This document shows, one piece after another, positions 31,133 to 51,491 of a DNA stretch of 64,000 nucleotides. The stretch spans positions 96,090 through 160,089 of the forward strand of contig NZ_LMRT01000001.1 of the NCBI RefSeq assembly GCF_001426225.1, read 5' to 3'. The stretch comes from Allobosea sp. Leaf344 (lineage in GTDB: Bacteria > Pseudomonadota > Alphaproteobacteria > Rhizobiales > Beijerinckiaceae). The notes under the pieces were generated by a model. It was not told the origin of the DNA, ran no database searches, and saw nothing but the letters and a program-made list of their open reading frames with translations. Position 1 is the stretch's first letter. Every line of letters begins with the position of its first letter. Both the position numbers and the translations under genes were made by a program.

Positions 31133-33376
31133 TCAGCCGGCGATGCGGCCGAAATCGGCGACGGCGCGGGTCGCCTCGCGCAGCTGGTTCAGCAGCTTCA
31201 GCCGGTTGACCCGCAGCGCCGGATCGGGGTCATTGACCATGACCGCCTCGAAGAAGGCGTCCACCGCCGGGCGCAGCTCGGCCAGCGCCGCCATGGCGCC
31301 TTCGAAATCCTCGCCGGCCACACAGGCCTGCGCCTTCGGCGTCGCCTGGGCCAGCGCCACCGCCAGGCCCTTTTCCTCGATCAGCCCGGCGGCGGCGATG
31401 AGCTGGAGATCGGCGGCGCCGGAAAAGGCGCCTTCGCCATCCTTCTTCTCCTCGGCCCGCAGGATGTTGGCGGCGCGCTTGTAGCCGGCGAGCAGGCTCT
31501 TGCCGTCTTCGGTCTCGAGGAAGCGGCCGAGCGCGGCGACGCGGCGCGTGATCAGCAGCAGATCGTCGGAGGCCTGCATCCCCTCGCCCAGCACCGCATC
31601 GACCAGATCATGCCGGGCGCCCTGATCGCGCAGCATCACCTTCAGCCGGTCGTGGAAGAAGGAGAGGAGGTCGCCCGTCAGCGGCGCCGCTTCCCCGGTG
31701 CCGGTCGCCACGCCATTCGCGGAGAGAGCCGCAGCGAGCGTGCCGGACAAGGCCAGCCGCACCCGGTTCTCCACCACCAGCCGGATCACGCCGAGGGCCG
31801 CCCGCCGCAGCGCATAGGGGTCCTTGCTGCCCGTCGGCTTCTCGTCGATCGCCCAGAAACCGACCAGCGTGTCGATTTTGTCGGCCAGCGCCACCGCCAC
31901 CGCGACCGGATCGCTCGGCACCCGGTCGGAGGGGCCGAGCGGCTTGTAATGCTCCTCGATCGCGGCGCAGACGCTGGGATGTTCGCCCTGCAGCTCGGCA
32001 TAGTTGCGGCCCATCAGGCCCTGGAGCTCGGGGAATTCGCCGACCATCTCGGTCGGCAGATCGGCCTTGGCGAGCTTCGCCGCGCGTTCGGCCAGCTCCG
32101 GATCGGCCCCGACGACCGGAGCGAGATCGCGCGCCAGCGCCGCGATGCGCCGCACCCGCTCGCCCTGCGTTCCCAGTTTCGCGTGGAAGACCACGCCGAG
32201 CCGGTCCAGCTTGGCCATGCGCTGGTCGAGCGGCTTCTTGAGATCGAGCCCGAGCCGGTCCGCGCTCGGCTGGAGAGTCTCCAGATCCGGCAGGCTGCCC
32301 TTGTCGGTCGCGAAGAAATAGGCCGCGTCGGAGAGGCGGGCGCGCACCACGCGCTCATTGCCGGCGATGATCGCCGCCCCGCCATCGCTCGCCATCAGGT
32401 TCGAGGTCAGCAGGAAGCGGTTGGACAGAGGGGCAGTCGGCAGCGGGGAGTCGGCAGTCGACGCCTCACCCGACTGCCGATCGCCCATGGCCGACTGCCT
32501 CAGGACGAAGCATTTCTGGTTCGCCCGGATCGTGGCGCGGATCGCCTCGCCGGGGATGGCGAGGAAACGCTCCTCGAAGGCGCCCATCAGCACCACCGGC
32601 CATTCGACCAGCCCCGCCACCTCCTCCAGCAGCGCCTCGTCCTCGACCAGTTCGAGACCCTGGGCGAAGGCGAGATTGCGTGCATCGGCCAGGATGATCT
32701 CCTTGCGGCGGTCGGCATCCAGCACCACCCTGGCCCGTTCCAGCGACGCGACATAATCGTCGAAGCGCCGCACGGTGATCGCGCCCGGCGCGTGGAAGCG
32801 ATGGCCATAGGTGACGTTGCCGGAGACGATGCCGTCGACCTCGAACGGCACCACCTCGGGCTCCTCGGTCTCGGCGCCGAAGGTGCAGAGGATCGCATGC
32901 AGCGGGCGGACCCAGCGCAGGCTGGCGCCGGCGGCCGAGGCCCTGCCCCAGCGCATCGATTTCGGCCAGGGGAAGCTGCGGATCACCGCGGGCACGATCT
33001 CGGCGATCGCCGCGACCGTCTCCTGCCCCGGCTTCTCGACGATGGCGACGTAGGTATCGCCCTTCTTGGGGTCGCTGACGATGGTCGCCTGGTCCAGCGA
33101 TGAAAGCCCGGCCGCCTTCAGGAAGCCCTGGATCGCGGCGTCGGGCGCGCCGACCCGGGGGCCCTTGCGCTCCTCGCGGATATCGCGGCCGCGCACCGGG
33201 AGCCCCGCGACATGCAGGGCGAGCCGCCGCGGCGTGGCGAAGGCCTTGGCGCCCTCATAGAGCAGGCCACGCTCGACCAGCGCGTCGGTGACGAGCTTTT
33301 TCAGATCATCGGCCGCCTTGCGCTGCATGCGGGCGGGAATCTCTTCGGAGAAGAGTTCGAGAAGCAGATCGGGCAT
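31133..33376 (-). CDS. glyS: glycine--tRNA ligase beta subunit, with palindromic insertion
   Basis: Beta subunit of the bacterial alpha2-beta2 glycyl-tRNA synthetase, 747 residues. Family marks: [20 protein letters not shown] at the start, [27 protein letters not shown], then [16 protein letters not shown]. The C-terminal helical anticodon-binding-like domain ends in [19 protein letters not shown]. Between [10 protein letters not shown] and LSNRFLL lie about 24 extra residues (about 293-316). They are encoded by a 72-bp palindromic repeat element, inserted in frame in a surface region. The start ATG shares one base with the glyQ stop (TGATG), so translation is coupled. Confidence 0.96.
32430..32501. 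repeat. inverted array of 7-bp units inside glyS
   Basis: Four units GGCAGTC, GGCAGCG, GGGAGTC, GGCAGTC (32432-32459), a 12-base spacer, then four units GACTGCC, GATCGCC, CATGGCC, GACTGCC (32472-32499). The arms are inverted copies, matching at 24 of 31 positions when extended. Total span is 72 bp, exactly 24 codons, so glyS stays open. Confidence 0.85.
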
Positions 33377-49399: not shown

Positions 49400-50026
49400 A
49401 TGTCCGCCAGTTTCAGCCGCGAGCGACGCGCCATCAAATCCGGGCTCTGGCCGCTGGCCGGGATCGACGAGGTCGGCCGCGGGCCGCTCGCCGGGCCGGT
49501 GGTGGCGGCCGCCGTGATTCTCGATCCGAAGCGGATCCCCAAGGGGCTGGCGGATTCCAAGGCCGTTGAGGCGCAGGCGCGCGAAGAGCTGCATGATGTG
49601 ATCTGCGCCCAGGCGCTGGCCGTGTCGGTGGCCAGCGCCACCGCCGCCGAGATCGACCGGATCAATATCCGCCAGGCGACGCTGCTGGCGATGCGGCGCG
49701 CCATCGCCGGGTTGGCGCTGCGGCCGGTGCTGGTGCTGGTCGACGGCAATGACCCGCCGGCCCTGCCCTGCACGGCCGAGACCATCATCAAGGGGGACGC
49801 CACCGTCGCCTCGATCGCCGCCGCCTCGATCGTCGCCAAGGTGGTGCGGGACCGGATGATGGCCAGGCTCGGCGATCGCTTCCCGCATTACGGCTTCGCC
49901 GCCCATGTCGGCTACGCCACGCCGCAGCATCGCGCCGCGTTGCAAGCCCATGGCCCCTGCCCCGAGCACCGCTACTCCTTCGCGCCGGTCAAGGGGCTTT
50001 GGCTGCGGAGTGGGGGAGAGGGTTAG
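49400..50026 (+). CDS. rnhB: ribonuclease HII
   Basis: Removes RNA from RNA-DNA hybrids and misincorporated ribonucleotides. 208 residues with the DEDD metal site: D23-E24 in [16 protein letters not shown], a mid-protein aspartate in [11 protein letters not shown] and the last in [24 protein letters not shown] is the family's substrate-recognition segment. The gene ends just before the heptamer repeat array. Common alphaproteobacterial neighbour of ccrM. Confidence 0.96.
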
Positions 50027-50036
50027 GCGATTTAAG

Positions 50037-50179
50037 GCGAATGGCGAATAGCGAGTGGCGAGTAGCGAGAGGGGCTGGCGAATTGGGGCGCCACTCCCCA
50101 TTCGCCACTCGCCACCCCCCTGCCCATTCGCCATTCGCCATTCACCACTCGCCACTCGCCCTCCCCATTCGCCACTCGC
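50037..50179. repeat. inverted array of 7-bp units between rnhB and ccrM
   Basis: Five tandem units GCGAATG, GCGAATA, GCGAGTG, GCGAGTA, GCGAGAG (50037-50071) and a GCGAATT at 50078 are followed by inverted units. These are CATTCGC, CACTCGC and variants, to 50179, with C-rich spacers. The right half is the reverse complement of the left in unit sequence, so long hairpins can form. No protein-coding function is apparent. Confidence 0.85.
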
Positions 50180-50291
50180 CCCTTCCCCCCTAGGCAAAAA
50201 CTGCAGCCCCAAAACGACACGCATTTTTTCAACTGAGGAAACCGGGCTTTTACCCTGACTGGTCAATATCGCGACTGTTCAAGTTGCGTAA

Positions 50292-51491
<1,200 letters not shown>

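Follow-up and report, generated by a model that had tools for sequence, protein, structure and literature searches.

The window, that is, the whole stretch of 64,000 nucleotides analysed, contains glyS, the gene for the beta subunit of glycine--tRNA ligase, on the minus strand at 31136-33376 (747 codons; TIGR00211, E 1.1e-214; PDB 7yse chain C, E 6e-101). A complete heptamer palindrome of 68 bp lies within this gene at 32432-32499. Read on the forward strand, its first arm (32432-32459) consists of the units GGCAGTC (32432-32438), GGCAGCG (32439-32445), GGGAGTC (32446-32452) and GGCAGTC (32453-32459); a period-7 array search gives 32432-32460 for the same arm. A 12-base spacer (32460-32471) separates it from the second arm (32472-32499), in which the units are inverted on the same strand: GACTGCC (32472-32478), GATCGCC (32479-32485), CATGGCC (32486-32492) and GACTGCC (32493-32499). 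The predicted hairpin has a folding energy of -50.2 kcal/mol on the sense strand and -53.7 kcal/mol on the antisense strand (fold z -5.2 and -6.6); none of 200 dinucleotide-shuffled sequences reached such a fold on either strand. The glyS reading frame is uninterrupted across the palindrome. Elsewhere in the window, a related inverted array of GGCGART-class heptamers occupies 50034-50180, in the gap between an ORF at 49400-50026 and ccrM (50307-51491; NF050803, E 1.1e-184, 613 bits, below the cut-off of 830).

The insert in the GlyS protein

The initial annotation described four GGCAGTC-like units, a 12-base spacer and four inverted units in frame in glyS, and this is the arrangement found at 32432-32499. 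Its account of an exact 24-codon insertion of 72 bp does not hold. The native turn at this site has six residues (DPATGA or similar), and the genome of the window has 23 residues instead; because the insert takes the place of this turn, the net gain is 17 codons. Tandem GGCAGTC units translate as GSRQSAV and the inverse as DCRLPTA, the same and stop-free in all three frames. Since seven is a multiple of three plus one, GGCAGTC repeats are stop-free in all six frames, and a copy of suitable length is therefore able to enter a gene and be translated. The unit variant GGCAGTA gives TAG in one frame.

An AlphaFold2 model of GlyS (38 aligned sequences, mean pLDDT 90.6) places the insert, residues 294-316, in a loop between strands 290-294 and 317-325, corresponding to 32429-32497 on the minus strand (window coordinates assigned by hand). 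A short helix is predicted at 296-301, and the sole segment with pLDDT under 50 is residues 303-312. Chain C of 7yse, presumably the E. coli enzyme, has a gap opposite the insert, with a shorter stretch at that place. In the structure prediction proposed at the outset, the insert thus lies as a loop of low confidence flanked by two strands, and the view of an in-frame palindromic element in a flexible GlyS loop, belonging to a multi-copy family, is borne out. The loop is probably neutral, and the insert may persist because it is harmless there.

Occupied and empty sites among relatives

We compared the glyS site of this genome (G000; 4,345,447 bases, 15 contigs) with those of its relatives, whose genomes carry the other G numbers, while L numbers denote loci. 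The closest GlyS proteins with a named source come from two Bosea strains (82 and 85% in the best segment). GlyS was located in 67 of 67 genomes of the genus. In 60 of them, a query with the plain turn gives a single, unbroken full-length match of 459-462 bases, with no space for an insert; the turn sequence itself was inspected in about half of these 60. In G167, a run of N lies beside the site and the native TTGNLANRF is visible. Inserts are found at the site in 6/67 genomes, two of the heptamer type (G000 and G008) and four (G010, G019, G162 and G185) of a different, CCCTTCCCCCTTGCGGGGAAGG-like palindrome. The G010 insert starts with GGCAGTCG, perhaps a remnant. The insert is therefore missing from most close relatives, and a loop of the same 24 residues encoded by unrelated codons, the outcome that the initial annotation had set against its own proposal, is not what the 60 insert-free genomes contain. 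Outside the genus, long palindromic inserts stand in the identical GlyS loop of at least three species, Tianweitania populi (L096), Rhizobium tropici (L102) and R. rhizogenes (L119), from 78 loci read among 80 named. The GlyS loop has thus served repeatedly as a landing place.

The heptamer inserts of G000 and G008 have an identical left junction and closely similar right junctions (CTGAGGCAGTCGG ... TGCCCC). In a tree of 44 GlyS proteins, for which the bootstrap had not converged, G008, G001, G187 and G019 form a well-supported clade (100/100) with G000 outside it. Within this clade, G008 carries the heptamer insert, G019 the other kind, and the sites of G001 and G187 are empty. Over 90 bp on each side, the glyS flanks of G008 are nearest to those of G001 (0.96 and 1.0), against 0.88 and 0.86 for G000, and transfer of a glyS segment between G000 and G008 is disfavoured on this basis. 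The two insertions are probably independent, as their flanking sequences suggest, or else the product of a very short conversion. We also considered whether the spacer is the native turn with arms added on both sides. This was rejected: the spacer matches the turn at 7/10 positions in G008 (90 of 5000 shuffles as good) and at 5/10 in G000, no better than shuffles (4484 of 5000 as good), and the two plain turns read at the dnaE2 site described below need no spacer-like part.

Two further variable places were seen in glyS. A second in-frame insertion site is occupied in G004, G006, G008, G010, G015 and G020 (L051, L056, L047, L058, L048 and L057), where several genomes have SPSPLAGEG...PRGE-like inserts and G020 has a heptamer palindrome of the GGCAGTC type. 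After VVENGVRL, a hypervariable stretch ranges from about 10 to 110 residues among proteins of the genus and does not look palindromic on first inspection.

Heptamer elements lie in frame in one more gene, dnaE2, which encodes an error-prone polymerase (NF004225, E 1.5e-206, below the cut-off with a fragment as query). Seven of 30 loci were read, and the element is present at one dnaE2 site in at least four genomes (G000, G008, G019 and G004); G162 and G009 have a plain turn there and G015 another insert. As a separate observation, the dnaE2 matches of many genomes of the genus break at about one place, and this shared break point may make the dnaE2 loop an even stronger insertion hotspot than that of glyS.

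By its arms, the glyS palindrome belongs to a family with copies throughout its genome. Allowing up to one mismatch, GGCAGT dimers give 45 matches in G000 against 6 for the reversed pattern, and together with later matches we grouped them into about 11 elements, so that the genome-wide search for inverted GGCAGTC-type arrays suggested initially does return further copies. A palindrome pattern built on GGCART is present in 16/67 genomes of the genus and in 14/119 of the family (11/43 genera); reversed, it matches none in either set, which indicates that these palindromes are not due to chance. The strict pattern misses the glyS copy of the window itself, as its inner units have drifted. The proposal that the array beside ccrM follows the same unit logic is also supported: an S23 gene from a different genus within the family (L361) has arms of GGCGART units, and at one orthologous position (L258/L271) G001 has a GGCGAGT heptamer palindrome where G008 has GGCAGTC.

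G008 carries 21 elements. We compared 19 of its loci, which together hold 20 elements, with the orthologous sites in G001, all 19 of which were found at 91-99% identity over 180 bases. G001 shares the element at 9 sites and lacks it at 10/19. At L254, G001 has only the first of the two palindromes of G008. By eye, 6 of the 10 element-free sites in G001 hold another palindrome in the slot, REP-like in 4. At L255, within dnaE2, G001 has another palindrome, which leaves the remnant GGCAGTCGAAAG. The presence and absence of copies at orthologous sites suggest that the elements are mobile. In G008, a GGAGTTTCCCA/GGAGTTCCCA direct repeat lies beside the two adjacent heptamer palindromes of L254, a single observation.

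The arm consensus is approximately GGCAGTC, GGCAATN, GGCAGTN and GGCAGTC, with a short spacer before the inverse of this series. Of the left arms of G008, 19/19 have four or more readable units, with seven in L263. The second unit is distinct, with A as its fifth letter in 14/19 of these arms against 5/57 of the other units (p 1e-7), while the number of units varies among some orthologous copies (L253 and L263). Judged from their letters, the arms are likely a defined sequence, usually of four units. The spacers look unrelated among copies of one genome and are common to orthologous copies. Between G008 and G001, differences amount to 15/136 in spacers, 209/5581 in flanks and 15/352 in arms (seven of the nine shared loci, with L254 and L263 left out), and the arms diverge less than the spacers (p 0.010). 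Fast decay of the spacers was rejected as an explanation: the flanks compared include genes, and their difference from the spacers may therefore reflect a plain lack of constraint.

No target-site duplication was detected in the flanks of 27 short copies (3.74 alike against 4.13 when permuted). A unit-free palindrome scan of three sets gave 1, 3 and 2 matches, where each Markov control gave 1, and a unit-free period-7 tandem scan over 464 kb of G000 gave 11 rows against 9 in the control, five of the 11 being the ccrM-side array and three masked runs of N. Such scans miss drifted copies, including that in glyS, and say little. Rfam searches of the window and of L199, L330 and L334 returned one tRNA, with no match on the elements and no rRNA.

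S23 genes between heptamer arms

In the same genome, on contig C13 at about 484089-484528 (L199, 1788-2228), inverted arms of four GGCAGT units surround a 119-aa ORF. The ORF matches PF05635 (23S_rRNA_IVP, E 3e-37) and TIGR02436 (four helix bundle protein), referred to here as S23, and lies in the gap between two genes that we take from their sequences to be nuoC and nuoD. Within the genus, PF05635 is present in exactly 3/67 genomes (G000, G008 and G004). All three genes lie in the nuoC-nuoD gap between inverted GGCAGT arms, and they may derive from one old insertion since they share one site. The three genomes all belong to the palindrome-bearing 16/67 (p 0.012); the other 13 of these 16 have no S23 gene. 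In G001, the nuoC-nuoD gap is empty. No reverse transcriptase was found among the ORFs within about 1.5 kb on each side of the S23 genes of the genus, and the bAvd Pfam model matches the nuo-gap protein weakly (26.4 bits, cut-off 40). A AGGCGAAG repeat, possibly of 8 bases, was seen around the nuo element; it is a single, unproven observation.

The glyS copy has the two inverted period-7 arms of this S23-type element, with the same arm unit as the PF05635-bearing element of its own genome. Between its arms there are 12 bases and no PF05635 gene, and it is for this reason better described as a gene-less derivative than as a full member.

In a sample of the phylum, PF05635 was found in 52/299 genomes, in 48 of them above its cut-off. 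Among 32 S23 loci (3 from the genus), a period-7 array, defined by 80% agreement over three copies, lies to the left in 17 and to the right in 19, and 11 loci have one on each side. Among lags of 4 to 13, none but 7 appeared on both flanks of these 32 loci, and control windows gave 0. Twelve plasmid loci picked from 30 records (11 from cyanobacteria, one from Azospirillum) have the array on the left in 6, on the right in 8 and on both sides in 6, with 0 for other lags on both flanks. Pooling non-duplicate loci of Pseudomonadota and cyanobacteria at 70% agreement, period-7 arrays are present on both sides in 43/55, leaving 12/55 without them at that threshold. In 31/43, the unit on the left and the inverted unit on the right have at least 6 of 7 letters in common (permuted mean 4.25, maximum 11, 500 rounds).

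S23 copies of one genome can differ in unit, as GTGAGTA and GGCAGTA do in G214. Across the 38 loci with at least 5 of 7 letters in agreement between the left and right units, similarity of the unit is correlated with identity of the protein (r 0.508 for all pairs, 0.352 between genera and 0.294 between order-level groups drawn by us; 0 of 2000 permutations each). The correlation is 0.486 after GC correction and 0.358 for 32 representatives. As the permutation ignores the tree, part of it reflects shared descent. With or without that share, the S23 gene is inherited along with its arms. A further expectation failed: same-unit short palindromes were expected in G244, G315, G236 and G214, whose S23 genes lie in GTGAGTA-like arms, and none were found. 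Short GTGART palindromes occur in 1 of 15 genomes (G248), and the S23 gene of that genome has GGCAGTA arms.

Origin of the insert and comparison with known elements

Taken together, these results suggest that the glyS palindrome and the heptamer-framed S23 genes are members of a single mobile-element family about which little is known. We consider it probable that the glyS insert derives, as a version without the gene, from a mobile element that has heptamer arms and encodes S23; the role of S23 in movement is inferred. The arms and the S23 gene would form one mobile unit, and the S23 protein or a partner would recognise the heptamer stem as DNA or RNA. Gene-less copies would be moved in trans, as MITEs are, and those that enter genes would survive only where the frame is kept and a loop is hit. 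At glyS, the element would have taken the place of the six-residue turn, where 23 residues now stand. This reading is favoured by the 60 insert-free glyS sites, the mixture of filled and empty sites in the clade of G008, the dnaE2 site filled in four genomes, the 10 element-free sites in G001 and its empty nuoC-nuoD gap, the many copies in G000 and G008, the distinct second unit of the arms, the loop position in GlyS, the occurrence of S23 genes within palindrome-bearing genomes, the arrays on both sides of most pooled S23 loci, and the joint variation of unit and protein. Against it stand the palindrome-bearing genomes with no S23 gene, the unrelated spacers, in which the copies differ from ordinary copy-and-paste elements, the missing target duplication, the tandem scan close to its control, the S23 loci without arrays on both sides, the single site of the three S23 copies of the genus, the four genomes with GTGAGTA-like S23 arms and no short palindrome of that unit, and the mismatch of short palindromes and S23 arms in G248.

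The palindromes could instead be REP/REPIN-like elements or IS-derived MITEs moved by an ordinary transposase (e.g. RAYT), with S23 a passenger caught between two arms. That several slots hold a REP-like palindrome in G001 and a heptamer one in G008 (by eye) would fit this explanation, as would the few, single-site S23 copies of the genus and the 13/16 palindrome-bearing genomes that do without them. Against it are the period-7 arms of S23 genes in two phyla, with units that differ and vary with the protein, and the lack of a target duplication in the 27 copies, and we regard it as unlikely. Growth in place is less probable again: a short GGCAGTC seed would be extended by slippage, and template switching would then place a copy on the opposite side, leaving a hairpin. 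Unit number and letters do vary between orthologous copies (L253 and L263, the latter with its seven-unit left arm) and the arms remain largely complementary, as such growth would produce, whereas the same heptamer recurs in many genomes and genera, the second unit is distinct and a close relative has element-free sites. The same heptamer with its unit-2 variant at non-orthologous sites of distant genomes, largely as observed, also speaks against it. Of the mobile or slippage-generated element in the initial annotation, the multi-copy palindromic family stands, and slippage alone is not supported, because the second unit of the arm is distinct.

Selection for hairpins offers another account, in which the arrays are kept at 3' ends for termination or as mRNA ends, those in glyS and dnaE2 being there by accident. 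Several copies do lie closely behind a stop codon (by eye), and the arms have changed less than the spacers between G008 and G001. The pattern is nevertheless missing from 51/67 genomes of the genus and in-frame copies in two genes cannot act as terminators, which makes this very improbable. An ordinary, functional GlyS loop is the least credible of all and close to dismissed: one site is filled in two lineages, G000 and G008, but 60/67 genomes have no insert, four others have a different palindrome, and model confidence falls below 50 at 303-312. Returning to the S23-based mobile element, a much broader form of it is possible, and we put it forward tentatively and with some doubt. PF05635/S23 proteins would confer specificity on a class of mobile elements that has no transposase and extends across phyla, each protein lineage reading its own 7-base unit as a stem of about four units, and the 23S rRNA IVS, the Xanthomonas and cyanobacterial arrays, the ccrM array and the GlyS and DnaE2 inserts would all be forms of it.

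Palindromic elements of Rickettsia are in-frame palindromic repeats in protein genes, also found between genes, and copies of one genome are alike over their whole length. We know of no heptamer build and no gene-bearing form among them. The elements described here resemble them in the in-frame inserts in protein genes with other copies elsewhere in the genome, and differ in that their spacers are not alike between copies. The comparison with Rickettsia drawn in the initial annotation, which we made by description, is thus apt for how the elements work and not for membership. With MITEs, the glyS copy has in common the terminal inverted repeats of a gene-bearing element; a target-site duplication was not found, and the gene between the arms is PF05635.

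The armed elements also resemble the IVS in the 23S rRNA of Coxiella, in which palindromic ends surround an S23 gene. In that IVS, terminal inverted repeats form a 28-bp stem, which is the length of four heptamers, and tandem GACAGAT heptamers lie just before the S23 ORF; its mobility had been proposed earlier by others (PMC4990558). In the part of that source on the IVS, heptamers are not presented as a general rule for the family. The Coxiella IVS lies in rRNA and is excised by RNase III, whereas the glyS copy is outside any 23S rRNA gene, gene-less and translated. In Xanthomonas, GGGAATC heptamer arrays have four units in the majority, and inverted pairs number 70 in one genome and 75 in another; heptameric repeats have likewise been described in Nostoc (PMC4692102). 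Their unit is unlike GGCAGTC, they are discussed as quadruplex-forming simple repeats, and neither "S23" nor "four helix" appears in the main text of that paper.

Other repeats differ in build. REP and REPIN sequences with RAYT are short, multi-copy palindromes in bacterial genomes (PMC3733652, PMC3116915), 20-40 bp and tagged, compared with heptamer arms of about 28 bp here; REP-like palindromes share slots with heptamer ones in G001 and G008. Beggiatoaceae have abundant intergenic TAACTGA heptamers (169 sets, one indirect), which are direct repeats in contrast to the inverted arms here (PMC4679880). PF05635 resembles Avd, the accessory protein of diversity-generating retroelements (PMC10053308), whose systems differ from the S23 surroundings in this genus (about 1.5 kb on each side), where no reverse transcriptase ORF is listed.

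S23/IVP proteins go back to about 1993 in the literature (cited in PMC4990558) and have no settled function, and heptamer repeats occur in several phyla with no known cause. A link between the two gives both a testable role, in the binding of the protein to its own stem and the movement of gene-less copies. The glyS and dnaE2 inserts would further represent a route to new protein segments, by which a palindrome without stop codons is added in frame to a loop. The same loop has been entered more than once, and palindromes of other families occupy these slots as well. In the open-licence literature we did not find heptamer arms joined to S23 as a general rule, which is no proof of absence; the word "heptamer" does not occur in the main texts of three papers that name the S23 family, among them PMC3936711 and PMC10053308. 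S23-family genes have been described inside cas loci, with a structure for Xcc0516 of Xanthomonas campestris (PMC3936711), whose genome is one of those with the GGGAATC repeat (PMC4692102). In the cyanobacterial plasmid loci L372, L375 and L379, we likewise observed four-helix-bundle genes at cas loci, two in a cas6-cas4 gap and one in a cas10-cmr3-family gap, and period-7 arrays flank two of the three (L372 and L379).
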